DNA of 64,000 nt, taken from the NCBI RefSeq assembly GCF_000313135.1, contig NW_004457442.1:63945-127944 (forward strand), read 5' to 3'. The notes under the pieces were generated by a model. It saw nothing but the letters and a program-made list of their open reading frames with translations. It had not been told where the DNA came from and did not search any database. This DNA comes from Acanthamoeba castellanii str. Neff (taxonomy: Eukaryota > Discosea > Longamoebia > Acanthamoebidae). Of the stretch, positions 3,093 through 64,000 are shown piece after piece; positions within the stretch are counted from its first letter, which is position 1, and every line of letters begins with the position of its first letter. The translations under genes and the position numbers were made by a program.

Positions 3093-3598
3093 CTTGGCCT
3101 GCCACGGCAACTGCACCGAAAAGCTGGGCGTCAAGGCCGTGAACTTGAACTTCCAAAAAGCATAACTTGCAAAAACAACTTGCAAAAAGTATGTATGAGG
3201 ACGACGTGACTTGAACACGCAACCTTCTGATCTGGAGTCAGACGCTCTACCAATTGAACTACGCCCCCTTGCCGAAATGAAACCCATTTCACTGTTGATA
3301 AAGGGAAACCGAAGGTTATCTTCCATCTGCACCGTGGGGCTTGCATCTGATAGCAAGACCTTTTCCGCTCAAGTTCGTGTCCTCAAGTTGGTCACAACCA
3401 AAACAGGCCACCAATCCTTCAGATGAACTTTACGCAACGGCCGGAGAGAAAGGGCGGGAAAACGGAGTTTCTTACACACTTCTCCGTTCCTTGCTTTTTC
3501 CTCCGGGCGGTGGCCGTTTCTCCGCCGCAGTGGTTTCTGGCGGCGTTCATCTCTCGAAGATCTTTGTCACGCACCCGAGTCTCACACACATCACACAC
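3093..3598. other. Divergent intergenic region containing tRNA-Trp
   Basis: About 500 bp between the start codons of the minus-strand RNA-ligase gene and the plus-strand NAP/SET gene. It must hold both Pol II promoters, and it holds the tRNA-Trp gene. Apart from the tRNA I see no clear TATA box; short CACACA runs lie just before the NAP start. Confidence 0.6.
3196..3268 (-). tRNA. tRNA-Trp (anticodon CCA)
   Basis: 73-nt cloverleaf read on the minus strand. Acceptor strands GGGGGCG (3268-3262) and CGTCCTC pair in 7 of 7 positions with two G-U pairs. The anticodon stem is TCTGA/TCAGA with loop CTCCAGA, giving anticodon CCA. The T-arm is GCGTG-TTCAAGT-CACGT and the discriminator is A. There is no intron. 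A run of five T on the minus strand (3188-3184), eight bases after the discriminator, is a good Pol III terminator. The gene sits in the divergent intergenic region between the RNA-ligase gene and the histone chaperone gene. Confidence 0.95.
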
Positions 3599-4902
3599 AT
3601 GGACGCTGCCAAGGGAGGAAAGAAGGGAGGCAAGAAGGGTGGTAACCAGCCCCAGCAGCAGAAGAAGGGCCAGGCGCAGCCCCAGCAGAAGAAGGGTCAG
3701 GCCGCCCCGGCCGCCGCCGCCAAGGGCCAGGCCAAGCCTCAGCAGAAGGGCCAGGCCGCCCCGGCCGCCGCCGCCAAGGGTCAGGCTAAGCCCCAGCAGC
3801 AGAAGAAGGGCCAGGCCGCCCCGGCCGCCGCCGCCGCCGCTGCTCCCGCCAAGCAGCAGCAGAAGAAGAAGGGCCAGGCCGCCGCTGCCGCCCCCAAGGA
3901 GGAGAAGGCCGTCGTGGCCCAGCCTCCCGCCAAGAAGGCCAAGGCTGATGAGGAGCAGCAGGCCGAGATCGCCGAGCTCAGCGAGGCCGCCCAGAAGGAG
4001 CTCGCCGAGATCACCGAGGCGTTCAACAAGATGGCCGATGAGGAGATGAAGGCCGTCGCCAAGATCACCCGCGAGTTCAACGGCAAGCGCAAGCCTCTTC
4101 TTGAGAAGCGCAAGCAGGTCGTCTCCAAGATCCCCGGCTTCTGGCTTCAGGCTGTACGCACCTCCAACTCCATGCTTTGTTTTTAAAATCGTTGCCTAAT
4201 CGCTGTACGACCTTTGCAGCTTGCCAACACTCCCGCCGCTGGTCTCATCAACGACAAGGACGCCGAGGTGTTCCAGTACCTCAAGGACATCAGCGTCATC
4301 GAGCCCACTGACGATGAGGCCGACAAGGCCAAGGCTGATGATGATTTCAAGATTGTCTTCGTACGCGCCTCCCTCACCCCTCTTGAGATTTAGCCTCTCA
4401 CTTGCGTAGAGTGCGCATTTGCTGATGTTGTTCGTTTCTTCTTCGCCTGCCGCAGACGTTCGACAAGAACCCGTTCTTCGCCAACAAGCAGCTCTGGAAG
4501 GAGGTCAAGTATGTTGGTGAGGATGAGAACAGGGAGCTCAAGGTCACCGGCTCGCCCATCAACTGGAACAAGGGCAAGAACCCCAACGAGAAGAAGGCTC
4601 CCGCCAAGGAGGAGGCCGGCAAGCAGAAGGGCAAGAGGGCCATCGAGGAGGTCGATGAGGACGACGATGATGAGGGCACCTTCTTCGACTGGTTCACCTC
4701 CACCGAGGACGAGACCGTCGAGCTCGGCGAGTGGTTCAGGGACAAGTTCTGCCCTCAGGCCGTCGGCTACTTCATGGGCGACGTCTCCGACGATGAGGAC
4801 GACAGCGACCTTGACGAACTTGACTCCGAGGAGGAGGCCGAGTTTGCCCGTCTCGCTGGCCTCAACGGTGGTGATGACGATGACGAGGATGGCGACGAGT
4901 AA
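3599..4902 (+). CDS. SET/NAP-family histone chaperone
   Basis: Three exons (3599-4153, 4220-4360, 4456-4902) join in phase 0 into 380 aa. The first ~110 residues are low complexity: repeated KKGQA, QPQQ and poly-Ala blocks, basic overall. A long helix follows (AEIAELSEAAQKELAEI...), as in the SET/TAF-I dimerisation helix. The chaperone core then has KIPGFWLQAL, a DKDAEVFQYL segment, FFANKQLWKEVKY and a WFTSTEDET-type strand, and the protein ends in an acidic tail rich in Asp/Glu (GGDDDDEDGDE). This layout is that of SET/TAF-I proteins, which bind histones and act in nucleosome assembly and chromatin regulation. The basic Ala/Lys/Gln-rich N-terminus is longer than in animal SET. Donors are GTACGC in both introns. 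Confidence 0.9.
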
Positions 4903-5369: not shown

Positions 5370-8300
5370 TTAGAGAGGGTACGTGGCGGGGTCCTTCAAC
5401 ACCGTCGGTCGGGTGCACTTGTAGACGATGGCTGCCACGGCGCCGAGGACGAGCAGGAGGGCCACCAGGACGATCAGGGAGCCGCCGAGAACCGAGGTGA
5501 GCACGATCAGGAGCGTGTGGTCGTCCGGCTGCGGCTCCTCGGAGTAGACCGAGCAGGAGAATTCGAACTCGACGGTGAAGGTGGTGTTGACGAGGTTCTT
5601 GTTGGAGAGCAGCCGGTAGGTGCCCGGCTTGAGGAAGGGCGGCGTCGAGGTGGTCGTGCCGCGCTCCAGCAGCAGGTCCGGCACGGGCTGCGGGCCGCTG
5701 AAGGAGATGACGTGGTCCAGCACGTCGCGGTTCTCCAGCACGAGCACATCGCCCACAGCCACCCGCTTGCCGTTCCACCACGTCGACGAGTCCACCGTTT
5801 GCGGCTCCACCAGCCGCACGCGGTGCTGGTGCGCGCCGCGCGGGTAGTGCGCCGTGTTGTAGGCCACGCGCGTGACCAGCTCCGGGCGGTGCGGCTCGTA
5901 GTAGTAGGTGGTGGCGAACCACCCGTGCACGTCGTTGAAGGGCATGATCGCGCAGCAGTGGTGGTACTCGGTCGTCGACGTGGACGTGGACGTGGACGTG
6001 ACGTTGCGCGCGGACTCAGCCGTGTAGACGCAGCGACCGCACACGTCGACCTGCTTGGTGTTGTAGCTCACGCGGAGCGTGAAGCTGACCGACGAGCTCT
6101 CGACCGAGGTGATGCGGTAGAGGCCGGGCTCCTGGATGATGATCTCGAGGGTGTTGCCCGGGCGGAGCGCGGCGTAGTCCCAGCGCGTCTGGATCTGCTT
6201 CACGCGCGCCACGTCGGCCGGCACGTCGAGGCGGTACATGATGAGCGTGTAGGTGTGGCCCGCCTGCAGGTTGGTGATGGCCAGCTTCTCGCCGGTCTCG
6301 AGCGTGTCGCGCAGGATGATGGCCTCAAAGTCTTTGATCGTCGCCGTCGTCTGCGCGAAGGGCAGGAAGCAGCACTGCGTGTTGTTGCCGCCGCACACGC
6401 CGCAGAAGTCGCGCTTGGTGTCCGACCACGGGATGCCGTCGCAGCCCGCGCACTGCGTGTTGTTGCCGCCGCACACGAAGCACTGGTCCAGCTGGCCCGC
6501 CGGGCACGAGCACGCCGGGTCGGTGATGACGTGCTGGCCGAAGCACTGGCCGGCGCAGTCCTTGTCGGCGTTGAAGTCGCGCCTGGTGGTGCCCAGCGCG
6601 CACACCTGGCAATCGTCCAGCACGGCGGTGCCGTTGCACACGCCGGCGCAGTCCTGCCACGAGTTGGGCTCGAAGCCGTCGCCCGGCACGTAGCACACGT
6701 TGCAGTCGTCCCGCGTGGCGTTGCCGAAGCACCGCCCCTGGCAATCCTTGTCGGCATTGGGCGCCACGCCGGTGGAGCCCTCGACGCACTTGCCGCAGTC
6801 GTCGACGTAGGCCGAGCCCTTGCAGACGTTGTTGCAGTCGACCGTGTAGCCGCTGCCGTTGTAGTAGTTCTCGGGGGTGGCGCACACACCGCACGGGTTG
6901 TAGCGCGCGGTGCCGTTGCACACGCCCATGCAGTCCTTGAACTCGTTCACGTCCCTGCCGGACGAGCCGCCCACGCACACGCCGCACTCCACGGTCGCGC
7001 TGCCGAAGCACAGGTTGGCGCAGTCCAGCTCGTTCGCCGCGCAGCAGGTGCCCCGCTTGTCCACGACTCCGCCGCACGAGGTGGCCTGCCGCTCGGACGC
7101 CGTCATCGCGGCCGCACCGCTCGTCTCGTCCTGGTCGAACCGCTTCGCGGTCGTGCCGTTGAAGCCGCACACCTCGCTCTCCGTGATGGCACACACGCCA
7201 GCGCACGTCTTTGTCATCGGACCCTAATCATACGACACACACGGCACACACACAGTGAGAATGAAGGGAGCGAATGAAAGAATGAATGAACGAATGAATG
7301 GCGTACGTCGAGTCCGGAGGAGCCGCCGACGCAGCGCAGGCATTCATTGATCCGGGCTGTGCCGGCGCACACGCCAGCGCAGTCGATCTTGGCGGTGCCG
7401 AGGCACACGCCGGTACAGTCGCGCACGGCGTTGCCGTTGCAGGTGCCCGCGCAGTCCATGCCGTGGGAGATGTCGAGGCCGGTGTCGCCGCCGACGCAGT
7501 GGCCGCACGGGTTGAGCTTGCGCGGGCCGCCGCACTCGCCGGCGCAGTCAGCCAGGTAGGCGTGTGTGTCGCGGTCGGCGCCGCACTGGCCGCAGAACTC
7601 GGGCGTGGAGCCGTTGCACACGCCCATGCAGTCCTTGGCGAAGCCCGCAACGCGGCCGGTGGAGCCGCCCGTGCAGAAGCCGCACTCGTCGATCTTGGCG
7701 GTGCCGTTGCACACGCCGGCGCAGTCCTTGGCCTTCTCCGGGTCGTAGGCGTCGACGAACGGGTCGTAGCACACGCCGCACACGTCGCGGCGCGCACGGC
7801 CGCGCGGGGTGCCCTTGCAGTCGAGGCACGAGGTGCCGTTGCCGCCGCACACGCCGCACACGTCCTTCTGGAGGTCGGACGGGTCGACGATGATGGTGCC
7901 GTGGAGGGCCGGGTTGTTGGAATCGTGCCACACGTAGATGCCCGGGCTGAAGAACCGGTGCGGCGCGCTCGCGGCCCCCGGTGCCATCACGGCCGGGTCG
8001 CCCTCGGCCGTACGGGCCAGCTCGGCAAAGTCGTACGTGGCCCACCCGCGGGCCGCGCCGAAGCCCGAGAACATGGCCACGCCATAGGAGGTGGTCATCT
8101 GCATCGACGCCGCCGTGCCCACCTCGGGCGCGCCCAGCTCGCCGTCGCCGAAGCTGGCCTCGCCATTGTCCTCCGGCTTGTTCTCCTCGGGCTTGGCCGC
8201 CGCGCCCTCCGAGGCGCCCTCCTTGGGCTTGGCCTCGGGCTTGGCCGTCTTGCCCCCGGTCGTGGTCCCGCCCTTGGCACTGGCAGCCTTCTTGGCACCC

Positions 8301-20709: not shown

Positions 20710-22077
20710 TCACCAGTTGTCGTGCTTGTGTGCCTGGAGCCACTCGCGTGCGATGGTCCGCGCCCCTCCCTCGCCCGGGTAGCAGCCGTGCAGCCACCGG
20801 CCGTTTCCTCGGTAGCGGTGGGCTCGCACGTAGTTCTTCTCTACTGACCGTCGATACCTGCAGGCAAGTGCTGGTTAGCGAACAATGCCAAGTATGTGCG
20901 TGGTGATGTAGATGATAGAGTGCGTCGCAGGTGAGGTACTGCTTGGTCTGCGTGCTCTTGCCCTTGAGTGTGGCCTTGTTGACCTTCATCACCTTGAACG
21001 TCATGTAGAGCAGGTTGTCATTGGTCTCTGCGTCGATTGGGAGCAGCTTCGTAGACCTCCTGAACTGCGCTCGACCCTGTGTAGCGATCCGTTACCGTAG
21101 TGATATGAGCACACAACGCCTGGGTGTGCGGTGGTGCGTGTGCGTGTGCGGTGGTGCGTGTGCGTGGGCGGACGCGGGTGTTCGTGCCGTGAAGAGGCCG
21201 ATGAACTGCTTGTGGAAATACGAGCGGAGGAAGGCGAGCGTGATCTCCCATCGCCAGCCCTCAAACTTGAACGTGTGCGGAAGCGGGACATCGCGGCTGG
21301 CCGGCAGCGGGTAGTGCATTTGGCTGGGCGTCCAACCAAAATGCCACTGCCGCCAGTGGTCAGCCATGAGGTGCCCTCCCTGCCTGTCTCGCCGAAGCCG
21401 CTCGTGGTCAGCCCGGGCGCTCTCCACCTCGTCTTCCAGGTCGCCATCTCGACGAGCTCGTCGCCTGCGCAGGTCGCAGGCGCGCAGGTCAGCATAGAGC
21501 GACCTGAAGTACTGCGCCTCCTTCCGGTCCCACTTGCGCCCGACCTTGCCTCGCGTCCGCCGTCCAGCTGTTCCGCTTCTTCGTTTCTCCCGACAGACCG
21601 CAGCGAATCGCCGCCTCTCCTCGTGAGACATTATCGCGCAAGCGTCCCCGCCTCCTCCACGGCCATCTTCGTCTTCATCAATGAGTGGACTGATTTGATA
21701 GAGAATGGCGAGGAGTTGGGCCGCTTTCATCCGCAGTCTCGAGGTCTCTAAAGCACACTCACACGAACGGCGCAGTTGTCAGCTCGCGCAGGAGTGATTG
21801 CAAACCAAAGCTAGAGAGGGATGGACAGAGGGAAGTGCGTGGACGGACCGGCCATGTGCTCGCGCTCGGACTTGGCGCAGAGCGTGCTGATGAGCGTTTC
21901 CTTGTGTCTGGCGATGAACGCCAGCACCTGTTCGTCTGCGTCGACGAGGCTCAACAGGAAAGCGATAGTGCTGAGCGCTTCAGCACGTTCAGCGTTAGCC
22001 GTGGCTGTAAACCTATGCCTTGTCCCGCGCCAAGGAGCCGCATCTCTTCCTCCAACCTCGTCTTCATCTCCCTCCTT

Positions 22078-22112
<35 letters not shown>

Positions 22113-23379
22113 GGTCTTCGTCTTCGTCTTCGTCTTCATTTTCGTCCTCGACGTAGTCCTCTTCCTCTCCATCGTCGATATTACCGTCGCTTTCGTTATC
22201 GTCATCATCACTCTGATTGCCTGTGTCGTCACTCTCTTCATCCCTGTTGTCTACTGAGTCAGAGTTAGATTCCGAGCCGTCAGCGGTGTCCCACAGGCGA
22301 CGATCTACCGTGGCGGGCTCAGGCCACTCGACCAGGTAGAGCCGGGCAAGCCTGTCGCATGTCTCGAGGCCCAGCCTGGTGTCCTCTAGCACCATGCTCA
22401 CCACGGCCAACGTGCGCATGGCCTCCCTCCGCAGGTGACTCGCCGGCCCGTCGCTCGCTTCGCCGGCCCATTGCTGGCTGTCGGCGGCGTGGTTGATCAG
22501 CACGCGATGCACCACCGCGAGCAAGGGCAGGTCCGATTCGGAGGAGAGCCGCTGCTTGGCCGCCTTCCGCGTCTTCCTATGGGGTCCGGGCTCATCGAGG
22601 AGGAGATGGGCGTGTGCGTTGGTGCACAGCACCACGAGCGCCGAGGTGAGCCGTAGCGCTGCCACTTGCAGCCTCCACCCCAGGAAGCGCTCCCTGTTGC
22701 GCTTCTTGCCTCCGACGCGCTGTTTGGCGCCTGACCTCTCGTCTTCTTCTTTGTCCTCCTTGGGCTCTTCGAAGACTCGGGCGACTGCGGCGGGTGGCGC
22801 CATGACCGGTCGCAGCTTGCTCACGATCCAGCGCCTTAGGGCCAGCAGCCGGTCTCCCGCAGTCGCCCCCTCGCTCTCCAACCAGGCTAGCGTGCGCGGT
22901 TTCCGGCGCATCGGCTCGCCTGTGCCTGCAGCTTAGCAAGTTGCCAGCTGGCGTTCCCTCACAATCAAATGCAGAGGATGTAATCAACACATCATCACCA
23001 TCACCACGTGTACCCTGGTGCTGTACTCGGTACGGCACCCCGGACAGCTCGTGCTGCAACGCGTGGATGAGTCCTTCGGCCGCTCTCTGGTTGTGCCCCA
23101 ATCGCCACCAATGCGTTACCATGACTGCACCATGCGCTGATGATGATTGAACGGGCACACCATTGGGTCGAAGGAGGGGGGATTCTGTACCTGCTGGCGG
23201 CGTAGGTCGGTCTGGGCGAGGAAGGCCTGCCACACATGGTTCGACGGCGGGGCGAGCGGCCACTCCACTTCTTCGCCGCGCTCGCTGGCACCGAACCCAC
23301 GCTCGCGGTCTCCTACTTTTGAGGTTCGGTCAACCTTCTTCTTGGTTCTCCTTGTGCCTCGGTCTGAGGCAGACGACAT
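20710..23379 (-). CDS. Unknown 715-aa protein with acidic tract and conserved-looking C-terminus
   Basis: Six exons (23379-23191, 23086-23014, 22925-21849, 21747-21207, 21059-20940, 20857-20710) join with consistent phases into 715 aa; I do not recognise the family. The N-terminus is basic. The middle is Leu/Arg-rich and helical (RLQVAALRLTSALVVL...). An acidic run of about 60 residues, Asp/Glu with few others, follows at 22250-22050. Then come more helices (AEALSTIAFLLSLVDADEQV) and a basic linker. The C-terminal ~150 residues look like a folded domain rich in aromatics: KFEGWRWEITLAFLRSYF, TNDNLLYMTFKVMKVNK, NYVRAHRYRGNGRWLHGCYP. A 23469 start would add about 30 residues; 23379 was chosen because the sequence before it is low quality. 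The gene is divergent from the U-box gene with about 340 bp between starts. Confidence 0.65.
22050..22250. repeat. Trinucleotide-rich tract coding for an acidic run
   Basis: Imperfect TCGTCA/TCTTCG triplets (densest at 22079-22140) read on the minus strand as Asp/Glu codons in the unknown 715-aa protein. It is a coding microsatellite, likely variable in length. Confidence 0.75.
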
Positions 23380-23716
23380 CTTTCTTCTTCGTTGTCCGTT
23401 TTCGTTTTCTTTCGTTTTTTCTTTATTTCCTTTCTGTCCAGCAGAGATTGATCGATGGAGGAGGACCACAGCGAGTGGCCTGCGTGCGCCAACCTGATTT
23501 TGAGGTTGAGGTACCTCTCTGCGTAAACGCCAAACGTTCGCCTAATACTAATCCCCCACTTCGGCAATTCACTGAAGGTTGTGAGGGGGTAGAAACGGAC
23601 CCATAATGGCAGGCGAGCACGGCAAGCCTAAGTAACCTGCAGCTGGTGCGCGCCAGCTCTTCTTTACTGCTGGCCTCGCTCGTCTCCGAGAGAAGAGGCT
23701 GACAAAGAAAGGGAAC
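23380..23716. promoter_or_regulatory. Divergent promoter region
   Basis: 337 bp between the start codons of the unknown 715-aa gene (minus) and the VIT-VWA-U-box gene (plus). It is locally T-rich (CTTTCTTTTTT-like runs at 23405-23430). I see no clear TATA box. Confidence 0.4.
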
Positions 23717-26700
23717 ATGAACGGTGGCGACAGCACGACGGTGACGGTGACGAACTTGGGTGGTGCCCCCAGCCCGCTGCCCGATAGGGATGGTGTGGTG
23801 ACGAGCACGCTCGCCGAGCCGACGTCGTTGTCGTCTTCTGTCCAACCGAGCCCTGATGCCGAGTGCATAGATGACGAGCCCAGGAGCAGCCCCAAGCGCA
23901 GGAGAGGCTGCGATGACGAGGCGCAGCCGACGCGAGAGAGCAACCAGGTGGCCGCCGAAGCCGCCAAGCCCACGGGTCCCGCGGCTGGAGCCAGCACTTC
24001 GGCGGCGCCGGTGGACCCGCCGCAGCCAGCAGGCGGCCCGACAGCCGCACCGGTGAGCACTCCCAGCAGCGGGTCCACGCCCGACTACGGCCTCTTCGTC
24101 GAGGACCACAAGGTGGAGCTGCAGCGCGTCCAAATCGACGTGCTCCTGCTCGACTTGTGCGTGGACGTACGCGTGCGCCAGGTCTTCGCAGTCTCCAAGC
24201 CGGCCAAGCGCAAGCTCGGAGCCAGCGACGACGGCACGACCGACAACGAGGCCGGCCCGCGGCTGGCGTTCGCGTTTCCCATCGACGACGTGAAGGCCGG
24301 CGTCTACCACTTCAGCGCCCGCCTCGGCCCCGACCAGGTCATCACGGTCAAGGTGGTCGAGAAGGACCATGGCGACGATGCCGCAAAGAAGCCCACCGGC
24401 CTCCGCAACAGGGCGCTCGCCCAGCAGCAGGCGTCGCTCATGACGGCCAAGCGCGACCGATTCGAGGTCGACCTCGGGCGGCACCGGCTGCCCTTCGCCG
24501 ACCACGCGACCGAGCCCGAGGGTCGCAGGGAGCTGCAGGTGGTCCAGGTGGAGGTCGAGCTGCGCTACATGATGGAGATCATGCTGGCCCGGTCGTCGCT
24601 GTTCCGCATCGAGACGGCCGAGGACAAGGCTAAGGTCGACGCCCAGCGCGCGGAGCAGGGCAACCGGTTCAAGTTCGTCTTCCCGGCGCTCTTCTCCTCG
24701 CCGCACTTCTGCGCCACCGAGTCGTCGCTCGCGCTGCACGTCGACGTCGAGGCCGCCTCGCCGATCTTGTCGCTCGAGTCCCTCACCCACCCTCAGCTAG
24801 CCATGACCCTCGACGGTACTTTGTTTTTCATCGAACCTTTCCATCGAACCTTTCTGGCCCTTGCAGAGATTTAACTGATTGGTTGGTGCTGGCCAGGTGG
24901 TGACGGAGGCCTCAGCGCGAGCGGCGATCTGCGGTTGGCGCGGGCGTGTCTGGACAAGGACTTCATCCTGCTGGTCGCAGTGGAAGAGCCCCACCAACCT
25001 CGCGGGTGGAAGATGTCCCTGCCGCTCCCGGTCGACACTGACGACCACCAGCAGCCGGCGGAAGACGTCTCCGCAGTGATGCTGGCGCTTTGTCCCGACG
25101 TGAGCTCCACCGCCAGCGAGCCCACGCTGGGTACGAGCGGCGATGCTGAGGTCTCGCCCCAGCAGGAGATCATCTTCATCGTGGACCAATCAGGTATCTT
25201 ACCTCCTGCCACCCCCCCTTAGTCGAGGTTGTGCCTGCGCGGCGGCTCGTACCTAATCCGAAGCCTGCCCTACTACGCGCTCATTGCAGGCAGCATGTCC
25301 GGGTCGCCCATGGAGTCGCTGAAGGAGTGCCTCAACATCGTGATCCGCAGCCTGCCGCCCGCCACCACGCTCTTCAACCTGGTCGGGTTCGGCTCGAGCT
25401 ACAAAATCCTCTTCACCGACGAACGTACGCCTCCAGCTCCCACCTCTTACCTCCCATCACACGGCAAATGCGAACACCGCTCACGCGCGTGTGCGTGTGT
25501 GCGCAGATGGCCGGCCGAAGGGGCAGGCGCTCAACCAGGAGACGTTCGACCAGGTGACCAATTACATCCGGTCGATGGGCGCCGACATGGGCGGGACCAA
25601 CATTCTCTCGGCGCTCGTGGCTGTGCTCGAGGGCCGGCACCAACCGGCGGACAGCAGCAGCTACCTGTACCTGCTGAAGCGAGACAGCGGCGCGCCGCCA
25701 ATGCTCTCCGCTGCCGGCAACTCTTCGACCCTGCCGCCGTTGCCTCCGCCCACGTGTCCGCGTCAGCTGTTCATTCTGAGCGATGGCATGATGGACAACA
25801 AGCGGGAGGACATTCTCGACATACTCCGCAAGCACTCGACCAACACCACCGCCTTCACATTCGGCATCGGCGGTGCGCACCCTTCCCCCCCTCTTCAAAA
25901 GGGCGCCTAACTCACTGCCCGCATCACATCAAAGGGACGGCTGATGTGGAGTGCATCAAGGCAATGGCGCGAGCCATGCGCGGCTCGGCCGAGTTCATTT
26001 CCCACAAGTGCGTAATCACCATCTGCTCTGCCGTACGCGCGGTTGTGCTCACTCTTAGTACACACGGGTTTAACCAGACACGACATGGAGGCCGCCACTG
26101 CGCGTCAGCTTGCTCGTGCGCTGCGGCCAGGCTGGAACGACCTTGCCGTGTCTTGGCTCGGAGATAACAGGCAAGGCCCCGACGAAGCCCAGCACGACGT
26201 CGACCAGGGCACCAACGACATGGAGCAGGAGGCGGAGGAGGAGGAGGAGCTGCCCAAGGAGTGGCTGTGTCCCATCACCGGCCAGCTGATGCAGGATCCG
26301 GCCGTCACCTCGTGCGGCCACCTCTTTGACCGAACGGCCATCCACCAGTGGCTCACCAAGGTATGCATCATGATACATTCCTTGCACCACCGCTGTACAG
26401 CTAACAGCTTGAATGTATGTCACTCTTCCTGCAGGAGTCGCTGACCACGGGCCGTTTCTGTCCCATGTGTCACAACCCGCTCTCGCTGCGCGAGGTGTTC
26501 CCGTGCTACCCCATCAAGTCGGCCATCGAGGAGCACCTCTCGAAGCGCAAAAAGTCGTCGGCGGCGGCGGGCAGCTCGACGAAGAACGGCGACAGAATCG
26601 CCGCCGCTGCAGCGCTTGGCCAGCCCTACCAGGCGCCCTTCCAGCCGCCGCCGCTCTTCGAGGGCGACACGCTGGTGGTCTACGCCTTGATGCCCTCCAC

Positions 26701-27338
26701 AACCGCATGCGACTCTGCGCAAGTCACGGCTCGCGGTCCTCGCGGAGGTGCTCCTTCCGCCTCCGCTCTCCCACCATCATCGCGCATTGCATGTGTGACT
26801 TACAGAGACCACACGCGCCAATCTATGCAGAGTCCATTAAGGAGCGGGTGGTCCTGCGCACGCCCACTTCACAGGTGTCAACGCTGTTGCATAGGCTGGC
26901 CGTGCGCGCGCTCATCAAGGACTACCAGCAGGACAACAGTACGGCGCTTGTCCCCCCCCCCACTTTATCTGGCTGTGTGCGTGTGCGAGCGTGCCTCACG
27001 GCTTTCGATACACGTAGGCGTGTGGCACTACCGCTTCGCGCGCGTCAAGGACGAGCTGAAGCGCCCGGGCGCCGCGATGTCTGTGCAGCACTACGCCCGA
27101 GCCGAGATGACCAAGCTGGCGCTTCTCTACTCTGTGGTGTCTCCGTTCACTTGCCTTTCAGCGGGTGGTATCTCGACAACGACGATTCAGCGCGCCACCA
27201 ACACTGTGCTCGCGCCAAGCTCTGGGCCGACTTACTCTCCAACCGGAGCTCCGGCAGCAGCGGCACCCGCGCAGGTGGCATACAGGTACTACTCCAACAC
27301 AAGCTGCCGCTTTCAATCTTTGATTGCACCTTACCTCA

Positions 27339-27377
<39 letters not shown>

Positions 27378-28626
27378 GCACACGCAGTCCTTCGTATGCG
27401 CCCACGTCCCCGTCGTATTCGCCGACGTCGCCCAGCTGGGAGCCGCGTGCCGATCCGCAGGGCACCGCCGATTGGATGGACGGCGTGAGCGGCCTGCCCT
27501 TCCCCATCACCACCAGCGGATCCTTCCTGTCGCCGCCCCACAAACCCAGCTCGCCCGTCTACCGCCCCACCTCTCCCAGCTATTCGCCCACGTCGCCAAG
27601 CTACAGCCCTGCGTCGCCGGCCTACTCACCCACCTCACCCAGCTACAGCCCAACATCGCCAGCCTACTCACCCACCTCACCAGCCTACTCGCCCACATCA
27701 CCTTCCTATTCGCCCACCTCGCCCAGCTACAGTCCAACATCGCCGTCGTACTCGCCCACGTCGCCGTCTTACTCGCCCACATCGCCGGCCTATACGCCGA
27801 CGGCGCCCACGAGCCACAGCCCGACAGCGAACGCCTTCGGCGCGGTTCCGGCCAGCGCGCACCCGAGCGCGATCCCAACCTACGTGCCTTCCGCTCCGGT
27901 CTACTGCCCCACCTCGCCCAACTACTCGCAAGGTTGGGTGAGCGTCCCCCTCTCCGGCCCGGCCCCAGCCGTGTCTGTCGTCGACTCCGCACTCGGTGAG
28001 CTGACCCTGTACGCCGCCAACCCTCTTCTTTGGGCATTGTGTGGGGCGGGCGCGCTAGGGGCTCATCGCTTGGCGCACACAACATCGCAGATCTACCGCG
28101 GCCCTGTTCAATCGCATCGTGAGCACGCAACAGTTCCAGGGCTGGTGGTCCGTGCGCGACCTGGTGCCCTCCTGCTTCTCCGAGTACGCACTTCGACCAC
28201 CACCACGACGATACCAACTTTGTTTTTTTAACAATTCACACTCTCACGATATCAACGATTTCTTGTGTTGTGCTGTGGTCGTCCTCCAGGCAAGACGTGA
28301 GCCTACTGGTCGCGGTGCTGCACGAGGCGTGGCGCAGCTTGCTGTCTGAGCGGACGATGTGGGCGAGCGAACAAGGAAAGGAAAAGCTGGAGGACGAGGA
28401 AGACAAGGCCCTGCCGGCCAGCAGGGACAAGACGAAGGACTGGCCCAGGATCGCTGTGACGGTGTTGGTGCTGCTGGAGCTGGAGTCGCCGGCGTTCGAG
28501 GCCAGGTTCGTGGTGTGGGAGCCGCTGGCCATCCGAGCCCGCGCCTGGCTCCGGGCGGCGTTGGGGCTGCCCTCCTCGGCCGACCTCCTGCGCCTCATCG
28601 CTTCCGTTCGGTCAACCGCACCCTAA
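23717..28626 (+). CDS. VIT-VWA-U-box protein with a Pol II CTD-like heptad array
   Basis: Thirteen exons (23717-24815, 24897-25193, 25290-25424, 25507-25872, 25935-26007, 26078-26360, 26435-26747, 26831-26938, 27018-27285, 27388-28008, 28091-28183, 28290-28626; one small intron choice inside exon 9 is open) give 1,330 aa with phases that agree throughout. Residues ~120-360 form a VIT domain. The VWA domain (~458-650) has the metal-site motif DQSGS at 463-467. A U-box (~715-788) has [15 protein letters not shown] and [16 protein letters not shown]-terminal elements follow ([18 protein letters not shown]). The next exon encodes 14 YSPTSPS-type heptads (984-997 and 1039-1122). The protein ends with the PARP4/VWA5-like tail ([14 protein letters not shown] ... 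[12 protein letters not shown]). It is probably an E3 ubiquitin ligase; a link to the Pol II CTD machinery is inferred from the heptads only. Confidence 0.88.
27340..27376. repeat. CA dinucleotide repeat in an intron
   Basis: About eighteen CA units at the 3' end of the intron before the heptad exon, close to the CACGCAG acceptor at 27387. Confidence 0.9.
27395..27811 (+). repeat. YSPTSPS heptad repeats, RNA polymerase II CTD-like
   Basis: Two heptads at 27395-27436 ([14 protein letters not shown]), then twelve uninterrupted 21-nt units at 27560-27811. Most read YSPTSPS or YSPTSPA; variants are [14 protein letters not shown] and YTPTAPT. A stray YCPTSPN follows at about 27900. The codons differ between units while the residues stay the same. 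This suggests selection on the peptide and not recent DNA slippage. The frame is fixed by the splice from 27285 to 27388, which itself yields [12 protein letters not shown]. Confidence 0.93.
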
Positions 28627-28814
28627 ATCCCCTTCTTCCATCGAAAGCCCAGACACAGCCAAACGAAACAAAAAACGAAACGAAACCAACAAACGAAGCG
28701 AAGCTAATAATTAATTGGTTAAAAAAACAGCTTCATCGCGCAACCCGGGTCGCAGAGAGAGCAGACATTGGTGGTTGGGTTGTGGTGCATGGTCGAGGTG
28801 TCTCGATTGTCCGT

Positions 28815-28946
28815 CTGGAGGGCGCGTCTAACATCACCAATCGCGGGTTCTAATCCCGCCGCCTCCATCATCAGGGGGCGTGGCCGAGTGGTTAAGGCGT
28901 TGAACTGCTAACTCAATTTACTTCGAAACCTGGCGTCGTCTTCCAG
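28815..28946 (+). tRNA. Candidate circularly permuted tRNA-Ser (anticodon GCU)
   Basis: The 3' part comes first: T-arm GCGGG-TTCTAAT-CCCGC (28843-28859), acceptor strand CGCCTCC (28860-28866) and A at 28867. After only six bases (TCATCA) the 5' part follows: acceptor GGGGGCG (28874-28880), A-box/D-arm GGCCGAGTGGTTAAGGC (28882-28898), and anticodon arm with loop CTGCTAA, anticodon GCU at 28907-28909. The two acceptor strands pair in 7 of 7 positions with one G-U. The flanks CTGGAGGGCG (28815-28824) and CGTCTTCCAG (28937-28946) can form a 10-bp helix, as expected for the joining helix of a permuted precursor. Weak points: one mismatch in the anticodon stem, T instead of a purine in the T-loop, and an undefined variable arm and join. 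Confidence 0.6.
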
Positions 28947-28958
28947 TGTAAGCGGCAG

Positions 28959-28980
28959 ACCCAAGCAAGCTTGCTTGGGT
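28959..28980. repeat. 22-bp perfect palindrome
   Basis: The sequence from ACCCAAGCAAG to its exact reverse complement CTTGCTTGGGT, with no spacer, centred on an AAGCTT site. It lies 13 bp after the tRNA-Ser flank helix. It could fold as a stable hairpin in RNA or be a protein binding site. Confidence 0.85.
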
Positions 28981-29175
28981 TGAGGCACCTGACGCGATCA
29001 CCACCCCCTTCTCTTTTGTGCGCCGTGTGATTCAACTCCTCAGTTTTTAGCTCCGATGAGAGGAGTGACCACAAATCTTGGTTGGTTGTTGTTCACCAAG
29101 ATCAAGGGCTCGATGACGGTGTAGATCAGACAAGCTGGCGGTTTTCTTTGCCTAGTGTTGGGCCAACGGGGCAAG

Positions 29176-32100
29176 TTACAAGGGAGTTTGTGCGTGCTTG
29201 TGATCCTCCGTGCGGTGGTCCACTTCCTCGATGGTGACGAGTGGTGTGTACGGCTGTCGCCCCTCCAGCAACAGCTGTTGGCCTCCTGGTTGAATATGAA
29301 AAGAAAATAGAAATGGCGCGTATGCGCAAGACACGGATTAGAAAAACAAACAAGACTATAAGTCCGGGTGATGAATGGAGGTAAGCTTACCCGGCGACGG
29401 CGATGGAGACGAAGCTTCCTCGGGCATGGGGAACTCGATGGTGGGCACGGGCCTCTGCTTCACGTCTTCGATGGCCAGCGGCTTGCCCGATTCGTCGGTT
29501 TTGATAGTGACCACCGTTCGCGCTGTAACAAAAAAAGAGGCGTGCGTGCGTGCGTGCGTGCGTGCGGATGAGAATCACGTGACCAAGTGCAGATCACTGG
29601 ACTGGGGCAAACGAAGAGCGTACCAGCGCTGATGGTGCTCTTCTTGGCGGCCCTCTTGGCGAGCTTCTTCACACCGAGCGATCGGACGTTGCTGACGGTC
29701 TGGAAGACGTCAGCGCCGACCGCGAAGCTCTGGCCCACAACCTCGGCGGCTTCCGAGCCGTACTTGTGCTGGACCACAGTCACCGTGGCTCCGCTCGATG
29801 CCGTCAGCACCGTTTTGCCGGCGTTCTCCAGCGCCTCCCAGACCGTAACTGGTGTGGTCGCCACGCGAGAAGTTAATGAAACATGAAAAACAACCGTGTC
29901 GCTATAGTGCAAACGCACGGCGCCACACCACACACACACAACACACACACAAACAAACACACACACGTACCCACGCCTCGCACGGTCGAACCGCCAACAC
30001 CCATCGCTGACTTGACGGGCGCATAGCCACCACCGTCTCCGCCCTACGGACGAGTCAGTGAGCTGGTAATACAATAGCAAGCCTGAACAATGCGCACCGA
30101 CGGGACTGCCTTGGCCACGCCCTTGCCCACGAGCTTGCCCAAGCCCTCGGCGGCGTAGACGAGCCCGTTCACCACCGCTCCGGAGGCTGATGTCACCCAT
30201 TTGTATACATTTAACATTTAATTGTTAGTCGGCGCGATCCAATCGATCGAGACCAAAAACAAGAACAGCAACGAGCGTGCGTGTCACGAGACGAACCTGT
30301 GACGGCGATGGGAGACACGCGGCTGCCGTAGTAGATGGTGCCCTTGACGAGCGGGTTGACCTTCATTTCCTCCTCGTTGGGGGTCAGCCAGCCGGACTCC
30401 TTGGCCTGCTGCACCGTCTCGGCCAGCCGATGCGCAAAGACCTCGCTGCCCTTCTCTATATAGAAACACGACAGCGCACGCGAGCGAAGGGTTGGACGGG
30501 CTGGCTGCATAGCGACCATCATTCCTTTTCAAGAAAGTGGACATCGGTACCGAGTCGCTCACTGAGGTAGGCACTGCCCGTGTCGATGGCGGACGCGACA
30601 TAATCCAAATAGCTCGCCGTTCGCTGAGAAAAATTGGTCGTCTGCGCGCCGAGAGGTCATCAGTGTCAGCTTAGCGCGCAGGTGCTTAGGAGTTCACTGA
30701 ATCTTAGCGTACCGCGTCGAACGGCTTGTAGGGAACGATGGCGCCCTCGGCGTTGGAGCTGAAGGTGACGACCTCGTTGGTGACCTGCCACGACTCGCCA
30801 TCGTCGCTGGTGATCTTCACGTCGGTCCTGTCCACCACCACCACCTTCTTGTCCTGCGCGCTCGTCTTTTCCTTCGCCCCTTCCTCCACACTCCCCTCAC
30901 CTTCGCTGCCGTCCTCCTCCTCCTCCTCTTCCACCTCCTCCACCGAATAGGGCTGCTGCGCTGCCGAATCCTGGCGGTGGAGGTCGTCGGCGTGGGTCGC
31001 GTCGCCGTACGAGTGCTTCACCTCGCACACCTCGCGCATCTTTCGCTCGAACACGTCGATGTAGATCGGAGGAATATTGCTGCACACACGCAAGACAGTT
31101 TAGAGCCAGCGAGCGAGCGAGCGAGCGAGCGAGGCGGTGGTGGTGCCGGTTGCCGAGAGAGAAGCTACGCACTTGGGAAAAATATAGGCGACGTAGTGAC
31201 CCTCCTGCTGCATGGGCAGAAGGAAGGAGAGCGGCGTGGTGCGGAGGCAGGGCAGGCCCGGGATGAGCGGAAGCTGGCACTCACCCAGGGCGAGGAACGT
31301 GAGCCGCACCACCTCCTCCCCGTTCACCTGCTCCGCTTCAAACGAGCGGAACCTGGTGGGACACGGCACACGGCACACGGGTGAAGGTGAACACCTGGGA
31401 AAGCTGCGAGAGACGCTCGTCACTGGGCCAACGTGCAACGTACAAATGCTTGTGTGAGCGCATCTCGCTGTCGGCTATGGGGACCTTGAGTATGCGTAGC
31501 GTTCCCCTCCCAACTTCCTCCTGTTCCCTGTGTGTGTGTGTGTGTCGCGTGTGTGTGTGTGTGTGTGTCAGTTACACATGTGGGGCAGTTGGTAGAGTGC
31601 TGATGTGGTGGAGAACCACGTACCCCGCATGAATATGAAGACACTGTACACCTTCGATCTGCAACACCTCCTCACACTCCCGCAGATCCTCTGTGAGCCC
31701 GAGCATGCGCAGAAAGGGGGAAAGGTTAGTAGTCAGGCGAGGCCAGTACTGGACTCGTGCAAGCACGGTACACGTGGCGTGTGGCGGCCATGCAAACGGA
31801 GGAGGGCGTACTTGCTTCCTTCTTCTCGGCCTCCTTCTCCCGGGCTTCTTGCTCCCGGAGGAACGTTCGCAGCGTCTCCGCACGGTCGGCCACCTCTGTC
31901 ATCTTCGTGCGCAGCCCCTGCTTCAGCGCTTTCTCCGATTCTGCACTCGGGATGGTCAGACACACCCGGGATGGTCAGCCAAGTCAATGCCAAATAAAAC
32001 AAAAGATATTAAAATGTCCAAATAAAGGCTTGACCATCAAATAAACGAGAATGAATGAAAAAATAAAAATGTCAAATAAAAAAGGTACCTGAAGAATAGA

Positions 32101-60582: not shown

Positions 60583-63500
60583 ATGAATCCTCCGACGAGC
60601 AATGAAAACAAAACGCCCATGGGGTGGCCGCCCAAGAGGCTGCCCACCCCCGCGGGCAACTTCATCGGCAGCAAGCGCGCTAGCGGCAGCACCCCGCCCA
60701 CCACAGGTTGCCCCAACCGACTTGCATTTATTTAAAGTGCATTATTAATTTGTTATTGATCTGAAATATATATATTTCTATACTAATATTTATTGATTAT
60801 TCTATTATTTGGCGACGCAGACAGCGAGCCTGCCGCCGGGTCATGGGCTACGGCGCGGGTGAAGCGCACGGCGGGCAAGCTGGACGACCTGGTGGCCCGC
60901 GACGAGGCCACCAGCGACAAGGACAAGGAGTTCCTGCTGTCGAAGCTCAAGCACCTGCAGACCAAGCGCAACACCGACGCCGAGCCGCCCCAACAAGCTG
61001 CGACCACCAAGGACCTGCCACAGCCACCCGGCCACATAGCAGCGTCGCCGCCGCCTCCGAGCAAGTCNNNNNNNNNNNNNNNNNNNNNNNNNNNNNCCCT
61101 CGTCGTCATCAGGGTCACCATCGCCACAGCCGCCGCTGGCCAAGGACGCCCCGTTGCCGGTGCCACCCTCATCGTTGCCATCGCCCAGCTTTGGCCTCGA
61201 TGCGGCCGGTCGCGCTCGCGCAGGCAGTGCACAGGCACACAACAAGCCGCTGCCCACAGCACCCGTGGCCGCCACGAGCTGCAGCGGCGCAGACGCAGAT
61301 GAGGTCAAGCACCTGCGCGCGCAGCTGCAGGCTAAGGACGAGCAGATCGACGGCGCGGCGCGGCAGCTCAAGGCCAGGGAGGCCCAAATCGAGGAGCTGA
61401 AGGCGCAGGCGCGCGACGATGCCGAGCAGACGCGCGCGCTCCTCCACGCCCGCATCGAGGCGCTGCGCGAGGAGATGCAGCAGCGAGCCCGGGAAAAGGA
61501 GGACGCCGAGCGGGGCAAGGCCGAAGCCGACAAGCTGGCGGCCCTGCGCGAGCGCGAGGCGCAGCTGGAGAACGAGTGGCGCCAGCGGCTCGGCGACGAG
61601 GTGGCCAAGGCGGTCGATGACCAGCGGCGGGCGCTCGATGCCGACAAGGCCCGCGCGGTCGAGCGGGTGGAGGAGGAGTGGCGGCGCAAGCTCGAGGAGC
61701 GGGAGAAGAAGTGGAGCGATGCGGCCGGCGAGGAGGCGGCCGGTTTGCAGAGCAAGCTGCGCGAGGCCGAGGCGAGGGAGCGGGAGGCCGTGGCCCGCGC
61801 CGAAGCGGCGCTGCGCGCCAGGCTCGAGGAGCGCGAGAAGGAGCTGGAGGCCAAGGCAACTGAGGCGGGCCAGCAGGTCCAACACCTGCGCGCCCAACTA
61901 GACGCGGCCAAAAAGAACGAAAGCGACGCCGTGGCTCGGCTCGAAGGCGAGTGGAGCGCGAAGCTTGAGCTGAAGGTCCAGCAGCTGACGGCTCAGATCG
62001 AGGTGGCTAAGAAGAGCGAACGCGACGCCGTGGCTCGGCATGAGGAGAAGGACAGGGCGATTGTCCAAGCGAGCGAGCAGCTCCGGGTCCAGGCGGAGGA
62101 GGCCCAGAAGCGCGAGAGCGGAGTCGTGGCTCGGATCGCGGAGGAGTGGCGCGTCAAGTTCGCCGAGAAGGACAGCGAGCTCGAGCGGGCCAAAATGCAG
62201 ATGCAGGAGGAGTTCGAGAAGAGCAAGAGCCAAGACGTGGCGCGGCTTGAAGAGGAATGGCGCGCCAAGGTCGAGGAGAAGGACAGGCAGCTGCAGCAGA
62301 CCACCGAGAAGGCCGGCGAGGAAGTGCGGCAGCTGAGGGTCCAATTCGACGAGGCCAAAAAGAGCGAAAGCGAAGCCGTGGCCCGCGTCGTGGAGGAGTG
62401 GCGCATCAAGGTCGAGGAGAAGGACAGGGAACTGCAGCAGGCCGTCGAGAAGGCCGGCGAGGAGGTGCTACAGCTAAGGGCCCAGTTGGCGGAGGCCAAG
62501 AAGAGCGAAAGCGAAGCCGTGGCCCGCGTCGTGGAGGAGTGGCGCACCAAGGCCGAGGAGAAGGACAGGGAACGGCAACAGGCCGGTGAAAAGGCCGGCG
62601 AGGAGGTGCTACAGCTGAGGGCCCAATGGGAGGAGGCCAAGAAAAGCGAAAGCGAAGCCGTGGCCCGCGTCGTGGAGGAGTGGCGCACCGAGGTCGAGGA
62701 GAAGGATAGGGAGCGGCAACAGGCTGTCGAGAAGGCGGGAGAGGAGGTGCGACAGCTGACGATACATTTGGACGAGGCCAAGAAGAGCGAAAGCGAGGCC
62801 ATGGCCCGCGTTGTGGAAGTCAAAAAGAGCGAAAGCGACGCCACCGCCCGCATCGAGGAGGAGTGGCGCGCCAAGTTCGCAGAGAAGGAGAGGGCGCTTG
62901 GCGAGGCATTGACGAAGGCTCAAGAGGAGGTTCGGCAGCTGAAGTGCCAGGCGGAGGAGGCCAACAAGAGCGAAAGCGAAGCTGTCATCCGGGTCGCGGA
63001 GGAGTGGCGCGCCAAGCTGGCGGAGAAGGAGAAAGAGCGAAGCGAGGCCGTCGCGAAGGCCAGCGAAGACGCAGAGGAGGCCAAGAAGCGCGAAAGCGAG
63101 GTCGTGGCTCGACTCGAAGGCGAGTGGCGCGCCAGGCATGAGAAGAGTGAAGAAGAGCTCAATCGCACCATCGCGAAGGCCAGCGAAGACGTTCAGCAGC
63201 TGAACCGTCAACTCGAGGAGGCCCAAAAGAGCGAAAGCGGCGCCACCGCTCGGATTGCCGAGGAGTGGCGCACCAGGCTCGAGCAGAAAGACAGGGAGCT
63301 CAGCGAGGCCGCCGCGAAGGCCAGCGAAGACGCTCGGCAGCTGAGGGCTGAAGCAGAGGCGACCAAAAAGAACCAAAGCGATGTAGTGGCTCGACTCGAG
63401 GAGGAGTGGCGCGCTAAGCTCGAGGAAGCCAAGAACGAAAGTGACGCTGTGGCCCGGCTCGAAGGCGAGTGGCGCGCGAAGCTCGAGGAGAAGGACAAGG

Positions 63501-64000
63501 AGCTCAGCGATACGCAAGCGAAGGCCGACGAGGAGGCCCAGCGGCAGCTGAGGGTCCATACAGAGGCAGCCATAAAGAGCGAAAGCGAAGCCGTGGCCCG
63601 GCTCGAGGCGGAGTGGCGCACCAGGCTCAACGAGAAGGACCAGGCGCTCGGCCAGCAGATCCAGCAGGCCGACGAGGAGGTCCAGCGGCTCACAGCCCAG
63701 CTGCGGGAGGCCGAGCACCACGCCAACGAGGCCCAAGCCGAGGCGCAGGCGGCGCTCGAGGCCGAGAGGCAGCGGGCGCGCGAGGCCCAGCTGGCGTGGG
63801 AGGCGGCCGCCGCCGAGCGGGAGCAGCGCGCGCAGGCCCAGCTGGCCGAACTCCGCGCCGAGGTCGAGCGCCGCGAGGCTGCGGCAATCAAGTCGGGGAG
63901 CGAGAGCGCGCAGGCCGCGTGGGAGGACCGGCTGGCGCGGGCTGCGCGCGAGCACGGCCAGCTCATGGACGAGCAACGGCGGCAGCACGAGGCCCAGCTC
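60583..64000 (+). CDS. Long coiled-coil protein, 3' end beyond the window
   Basis: Two exons are seen: 60583-60706, then from 60821 to the window edge. ATG 60583 was chosen; 60619 is also possible. The N-terminus is Pro/Ser-rich and basic (GWPPKRLPTPAGNFIGSKR). From about 61295 onward the frame is one continuous Ala/Glu/Arg/Gln-rich coiled coil. Between 61900 and 63600 it is built from units related to KKSESEAVARVVEEWR then EEKDRELQQAVEKAGEEV. Well-conserved neighbours are spaced 141 nt (47 residues). This recalls golgin- or myosin-tail-like scaffold proteins, but no specific family can be named. A run of Ns at 61068-61096 breaks the frame as given. Confidence 0.75.
61068..61096. other. Assembly gap (29 N)
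   Basis: Twenty-nine unknown bases in the Pro/Ser-rich part of the coiled-coil gene, between GAGCAAGTC and CCCTCGTCG. The coding frame on both sides fits only if the true gap length is one more than a multiple of three; 29 is not. Confidence 0.95.
61920..63600 (+). repeat. Tandem ~47-residue coiled-coil units
   Basis: Repeated DNA blocks of about 141 bp, for example starting with GAGGCCAA near 62351, 62492 and 62633. They encode AKKSESEAVARVVEEWR-type starts. Outer units are more diverged and shorter or longer. Confidence 0.75.

Follow-up and report, generated by a model that had tools for sequence, protein, structure and literature searches.

Stretches that resemble the C-terminal domain (CTD) of RNA polymerase II (Pol II), with its YSPTSPS heptads in the subunit RPB1, have been described in disordered regions of non-polymerase proteins of yeast. 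According to PMC7110113, CTD-mimicking motifs in Sen1 and Trf4 (their NIMs) and in Mpp6 bind the Nrd1 CID or are reported for it, and as such mimics bind a CID the principle of CTD mimicry has precedent. A further described system is PARP4 (vault PARP), in which a PARP catalytic domain occurs together with an ITIH-like VIT–VWA region. A review of PARP-family domains (PMC10450202) describes as disordered the linker that in PARP4 joins the ITIH-like region to the MVPID, and the MVPID as structurally like VWA5A; heptads are not mentioned in its section on this topic. We analyzed a stretch of 64,000 nt of the Acanthamoeba castellanii Neff genome (contig NW_004457442.1, C124 in our genome scan; the whole stretch is called the window) and focused on one gene, referred to as the U-box gene, whose protein consists of an N-terminus with a basic stretch, an ITIH-like region with a U-box inside, a linker of CTD-type heptads and a C-terminal part. 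While the yeast mimics each consist of one short motif with acidic residues upstream of it (PMC7110113), the Acanthamoeba protein carries an array within a VIT–VWA U-box protein. The gene was read from the window DNA and spliced at GT–AG sites; the gene as a whole and its heptads are located as follows:

23717..28626, forward strand: whole U-box gene; splice reconstruction with 12 exons, 11 introns and 1330 aa
27395..27436, forward strand: two leading heptads, aa 984–997; from the splice model
27560..27790, forward strand: 11 uninterrupted heptads, aa 1039–1115; from codon analysis and PF05001
27791..27811, forward strand: degenerate twelfth unit YTPTAPT, aa 1116–1122; from the sequence

In total the protein contains about 14 heptads (two leading, eleven uninterrupted and YTPTAPT), which agrees with the 14 YSPTSPS-type units of the original prediction, made by a model from the letters of the window; a stray heptad-like YCPTSPN is found at aa 1153. 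The Pfam profile of the RPB1 C-terminal repeat (PF05001) scores 24.3 bits on the whole protein (cut-off 20.3). Within the eleven uninterrupted units Y1, P3, S5 and P6 are conserved in 11/11 and S2 and T4 in 10/11, and position 7 is S in seven units and A in four. When the eleven units were compared to the consensus unit we observed 54 base differences and 6 residue-changing codons, while 10,000 random placements of 54 changes gave a mean of 33.5 residue changes and a minimum of 23; this trial ignores base-composition bias, the gap being wide nonetheless. Serine 2 is encoded by both TCN and AGY codons. The array is kept as a CTD-like peptide by selection, as had been proposed from the synonymous codon changes between units.

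The reconstructed gene runs from a start at 23717 to a stop at 28624–28626 through 11 GT–AG introns with an unbroken frame. This recovers the single gene with phase-consistent splicing that had been predicted, and the junctions 27285/27388 and 28008/28091 given in that prediction are the same in our splice model. A separate 4958-nt contig, which comes from another source, yields a predicted protein of 1232 aa (P0001). It is identical to the spliced model from aa 99 to the end, with a single difference (V99M) at its own start. All 11 introns of the gene are crossed by P0001, and intron 27286–27387 is missing from it. The longest open genomic frame containing the heptads is 608 aa, therefore P0001 was not obtained from unspliced DNA read without regard to introns. 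Its uninterrupted chain of 1232 aa and a start codon GTG rendered as M point to an intron-blind gene finder, from which we infer that its source contig is cDNA. Judging from the match to P0001, we consider it very probable that transcripts contain the heptad exon in the heptad frame. A different picture is given by the GenBank model P0002 (‘Ubox domain containing protein [Acanthamoeba castellanii str. Neff]’, 1216 aa), which is without aa 658–688 and 935–981 of the spliced model and has most of the heptad array in another frame, keeping the leading heptad pair alone. P0002 is thus the point in favour of a gene-model artefact, in which the heptad exon would belong to another frame or another transcript; the original prediction had itself named this outcome, or a retained intron 27286–27387, as arguing against it. 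P0001 answers this point: it has every exon joined in the heptad frame and departs from the model at a single residue, the first of its own chain, and the codon pattern of the array favours the same frame. The two other forward frames are irregular, with 34 and 33 off-consensus residues in the first ten units compared to 5 of 70 in the heptad frame. We regard an artefact as hardly credible.

The tail is not a one-off, since CTD-type arrays were also found in a PARP4-type gene of the same genome and in part of its listed homologues. Scanning the genome contigs with PF05001, with counts that are lower bounds, we obtained scores over the cut-off at at least four places, on contigs C234, C124 (the U-box gene), C44 and C32. 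The gene on C234 is RPB1 by Pfam and has 32 uninterrupted heptads. Position 4 is T in 10/11 units of the U-box protein array and in 7/32 units of the organism's own RPB1, and the longest exact DNA common to both arrays is 16 nt. We therefore rejected a recent copy of the RPB1 CTD as the source of the array. The C44 gene (G000:C44:485000-494900) has PARP, VIT and VWA by Pfam and is PARP4-type. In our splice model its linker contains RS and RGG stretches and, at about 7373–7603 of this stretch, an array of 11 uninterrupted units of the YSPTSPT/YAPSSPT type, which precedes the C-terminal part. A BRCT look-alike seen by eye in this gene had no Pfam match and was dropped. The C32 gene (G000:C32:108500-118400, minus strand) matches VWA_2 marginally, at 27.3 bits with a cut-off of 27, and Sec23/24 below threshold; eight CTD-like units lie near its N-terminal side, at about 4205–4372 of this stretch, and the frame breaks just past the array, through an intron or a sequence error. 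Five further single-pattern places (C5, C59, C124:511600, C148 and C247) were set aside, four having an isolated motif and one none.

We analyzed the best 120 of 685 relatives reported for the C44 protein; these are the best-scoring homologues and not a random sample, and related species among them are not independent. A strict heptad (Y-[ST]-P-[TS]-[ST]-P-x) occurs in 20/120 of these PARP4 homologues and tandem heptads in 13/120. Shuffled proteins had at least one strict heptad in 0.05 (whole protein) or 0.26 (60-residue blocks) of 120 and tandem heptads in 0. In all 20 carriers the heptads are located C-terminal to the ITIH-like region, and in all 16 whose C-terminal domain could be placed by profile they precede that domain. 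The arrays often have two to seven units. By record names the carriers are amoebae (Balamuthia, Heterostelium, Dictyostelium purpureum and Cavenderia), P0036, sponges (Amphimedon, Oscarella and Sycon), molluscs (Mactra, Dreissena and two Elysia), echinoderms (Lytechinus, Strongylocentrotus, Antedon and Anneissia), two lancelets and two fishes. Part of the PARP4 family, in amoebae as well as in animals, has CTD-type arrays in the linker that corresponds to the one of the U-box protein. The original prediction knew of no U-box protein with such a tail; this has changed insofar as such tails also occur in the C44 protein and in these PARP4 homologues.

The remaining parts of the U-box protein were assigned by Pfam and hhalign, the latter with a PARP4 VIT–VWA profile of 121 sequences:

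23891..23908, forward strand: basic stretch PKRRRG, aa 59–64; from the sequence, present too in the exon-1 relatives P0142 and P0143
24104..24815, forward strand: probable VIT part, about aa 130–366, at the beginning of the ITIH-like assignment; hhalign to the PARP4 VIT–VWA profile
25163..26090, forward strand: VWA domain, aa 456–661, introns included; Pfam VWA_3 (PF13768), 84.4 bits, cut-off 27
26253..26551, forward strand: U-box, aa 716–790, one intron; Pfam PF04564, 50 bits, cut-off 21.4
26615..27163, forward strand: remainder of the ITIH-like region, following the U-box, aa 812–940, introns included; hhalign
28008..28626, forward strand: C-terminal part, about aa 1188–1330, introns included, weakly VWA5A/MVPID-like; weak profile likeness

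For the predicted VIT–VWA module the VWA half was found by Pfam and carries the metal-site motif DQSGS (MIDAS, DxSxS) at aa 463–467. The VIT half had no Pfam match at E up to 1 and was aligned by hhalign alone (E 9.7e-7, probability 91; VIT and VWA together E 1e-32). The stretch after the U-box aligns to the post-VWA stretch of PARP4 with E 3e-11 and probability 97. The predicted U-box stands on its Pfam score, competing profiles scoring lower (zf-RING_UBOX 28.6; zf-Nse 26.5, under its cut-off of 27). Its nearest solved chain is that of the plant-type ligase U-box domain-containing protein 12 (PUB12, 7xed; E 2.5e-10), and in alignment A1 it forms a clean insertion after ‘DLAVSWL’, in a loop of the ITIH-like region. 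Unlike the plant-type ligases, the U-box protein has no Pfam match to armadillo repeats and holds its U-box inside the ITIH-like region. Pfam likewise matched no PARP domain and no RPB1 polymerase domains in it, and the one NCBIfam match was far under its cut-off. The predicted PARP4/VWA5-like end fared less well. Its likeness to VWA5A and MVPID is seen by eye and statistically weak: hhalign gave E 0.0019 and probability 14, a VWA5A-leaning profile 5.8 bits, with 6/1000 shuffles equally high, and a five-row seed profile 8.0 bits against a maximum of 5.2 in 200 shuffles, while with the iterated PARP4 profile the score falls among the shuffles. The C-terminal part as a proven MVPID was therefore rejected. 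In a bacterial VIT protein (P0003) we recognized that the last 110 residues, like the ends of bacterial and coral VIT–VWA proteins, resemble the PARP4/VWA5A C-terminal domain in sequence.

In overall arrangement the U-box protein is like PARP4, with an ITIH-like region of VWA and a probable VIT part, then a linker, disordered in PARP4, and a C-terminal part. It differs in having a U-box and no PARP match, where PARP4 has the catalytic domain and no U-box, and in a family tree of 31 rows it falls outside the 100/100 clade of the 10 PARP4 rows. Its branch is long, with unusual composition, and lies among VWA5A-like and bacterial rows without a resolved position. For its place outside the clade we rejected the gene as a PARP4 that has lost its PARP part, with the caution that the long branch demands. 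VWA5A/VWA5B-type proteins share the VIT–VWA core, over which a coral VWA5A-like protein and a paralogue on contig C15 align, and they differ in that the aligned rows have no U-box insert. Compared to the RPB1 CTD, with which it shares YSPTSPS heptads that score above the PF05001 cut-off, the U-box protein has T at position 4 where RPB1 mostly has S, and about 14 units where RPB1 has at least 32. Relatives of the U-box gene in other Acanthamoeba were found as exon-1 pieces only (P0142 and P0143, ∼89% identical, and P0157, 57%).

The likeliest reading, to which we give an even chance, is that the array serves for docking or phosphorylation and is read in the manner of the Pol II CTD. It would then do the work of a short, unstructured CTD, which proline-directed CTD kinases would phosphorylate and to which CTD readers would bind. 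The genome also encodes CID-type readers (4 matches) and MVP (1 match). In line with the original prediction, which saw a possible CTD mimic that brings a ubiquitin ligase to the transcription machinery, the heptad tail would place the U-box protein near Pol II or near CTD-reading RNA-processing factors. The U-box would recruit an E2 and ubiquitylate whatever partners the VWA/ITIH-like region or the array itself keeps in place. In PARP4, the same linker would bring the ADP-ribosyltransferase to the same kind of partner. From the usual meaning of such motifs we take PKRRRG (aa 59–64) to be a possible nuclear localisation signal and KRKK at aa 788 to be a second possible nuclear-residence motif, and from both we infer that the U-box protein may reside in the nucleus. 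A wider reading, that vault-related VIT–VWA enzymes (PARP4 in amoebae and animals, the U-box protein in Acanthamoeba) have long and repeatedly used CTD heptads as a docking code, by which ADP-ribosylation, ubiquitylation and perhaps the vaults themselves would be tied to transcription by way of CTD kinases and readers, is put forward as a speculation that we hold to be rather unlikely. Several findings weigh against the array being a CTD-like platform. The closest ITIH-like paralogue and nearest own-genome relative of this region (C15:74808-75428, E 5e-20) has a polyproline linker in place of the heptads and had no PF05001 match in the genome scan. Among the listed PARP4 homologues, 100/120 are without a strict heptad, including all 6 mammals listed and the second A. 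castellanii PARP4-type protein, P0010. Furthermore, 7 of the 20 carriers have single heptads, which is weaker evidence, and the single heptad of the fish protein P0116 is absent from seven other listed isoforms of its species. No strict heptad occurs in the 57 other VIT–VWA hits (P0003–P0008 and P0129–P0179), 3 of which are exon-1 fragments of U-box gene relatives that are unable to show one. As the U-box protein lies outside the PARP4 clade, its linker heptads may go back either to common descent or to a parallel origin.

Two of these findings, the polyproline linker of the paralogue and the large heptad-free share of the PARP4 homologues, speak at the same time for the array being a mere spacer that is flexible, rich in proline or able to form condensates and that links the ITIH-like region to the C-terminal part; in such linkers heptads would arise easily, and no CTD reader would take part. 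The description of the PARP4 linker as disordered (PMC10450202) fits this as well. A spacer would tolerate another order of residues, whereas the exact order Y1-S2-P3-T4-S5-P6 survives many synonymous changes, including TCN/AGY serine switches, and the PARP4 heptads are above the shuffle level, so that we consider the spacer possible but doubtful. It could also be that the tail is a decoy, titrating CTD kinases or readers off Pol II while the U-box destroys the catch. For such a role it is of advantage that the tail is nearer to the canonical heptad than most units of the organism's own RPB1, as seen at position 4. Against it stand the number of units, about 14 compared to 32 or more in RPB1, and the PARP4 versions, which often have two to seven; we regard the decoy as improbable.

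Some further observations were made in the window and among the relatives. No RNA family scored above its gathering score in 22000–30500. Downstream of the gene, at 28800–28960, we recognized by eye stretches resembling tRNA halves; the sole tRNA that ARAGORN reports in the window is a tRNA-Trp at 3196–3268. An array of ∼54-base repeat units lies at 3646–3892, and long repeats of ∼141–183 bases at 62217–63787 by eye encode charged, coiled-coil-like repeats. In P0010 (2088 aa), ubiquitin-like domains are joined to PARP–VIT–VWA according to precomputed Pfam matches.

In the open-licence PMC literature we found no report that joins YSPTSPS with PARP4 or the vault, and of the papers there that join YSPTSPS with U-box or von Willebrand none seems, by titles and the starts of abstracts, to deal with a protein like this. 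Within the reach of these searches, the recurrence of heptads in PARP4 is undescribed, and we consider it the more interesting part of our findings. Because the public gene model P0002 hides the tail of the U-box protein, annotation searches would miss it. To our knowledge, there is no agreed function for vaults and PARP4. With the PARP4-linker heptads of amoebae, sponges, molluscs, echinoderms and lancelets, there is now a concrete link, cheap to test, from vault-related proteins to the Pol II machinery. In the Acanthamoeba gene a linker of this kind is joined to a domain of the ubiquitin-ligase type. Provided that the arrays become phosphorylated and that CTD readers bind them, antibodies and pull-downs that are taken as reports on Pol II would report these proteins too. 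Should the heptads indeed be a docking code of this family, the CTD code would have a second use that does not depend on the polymerase.

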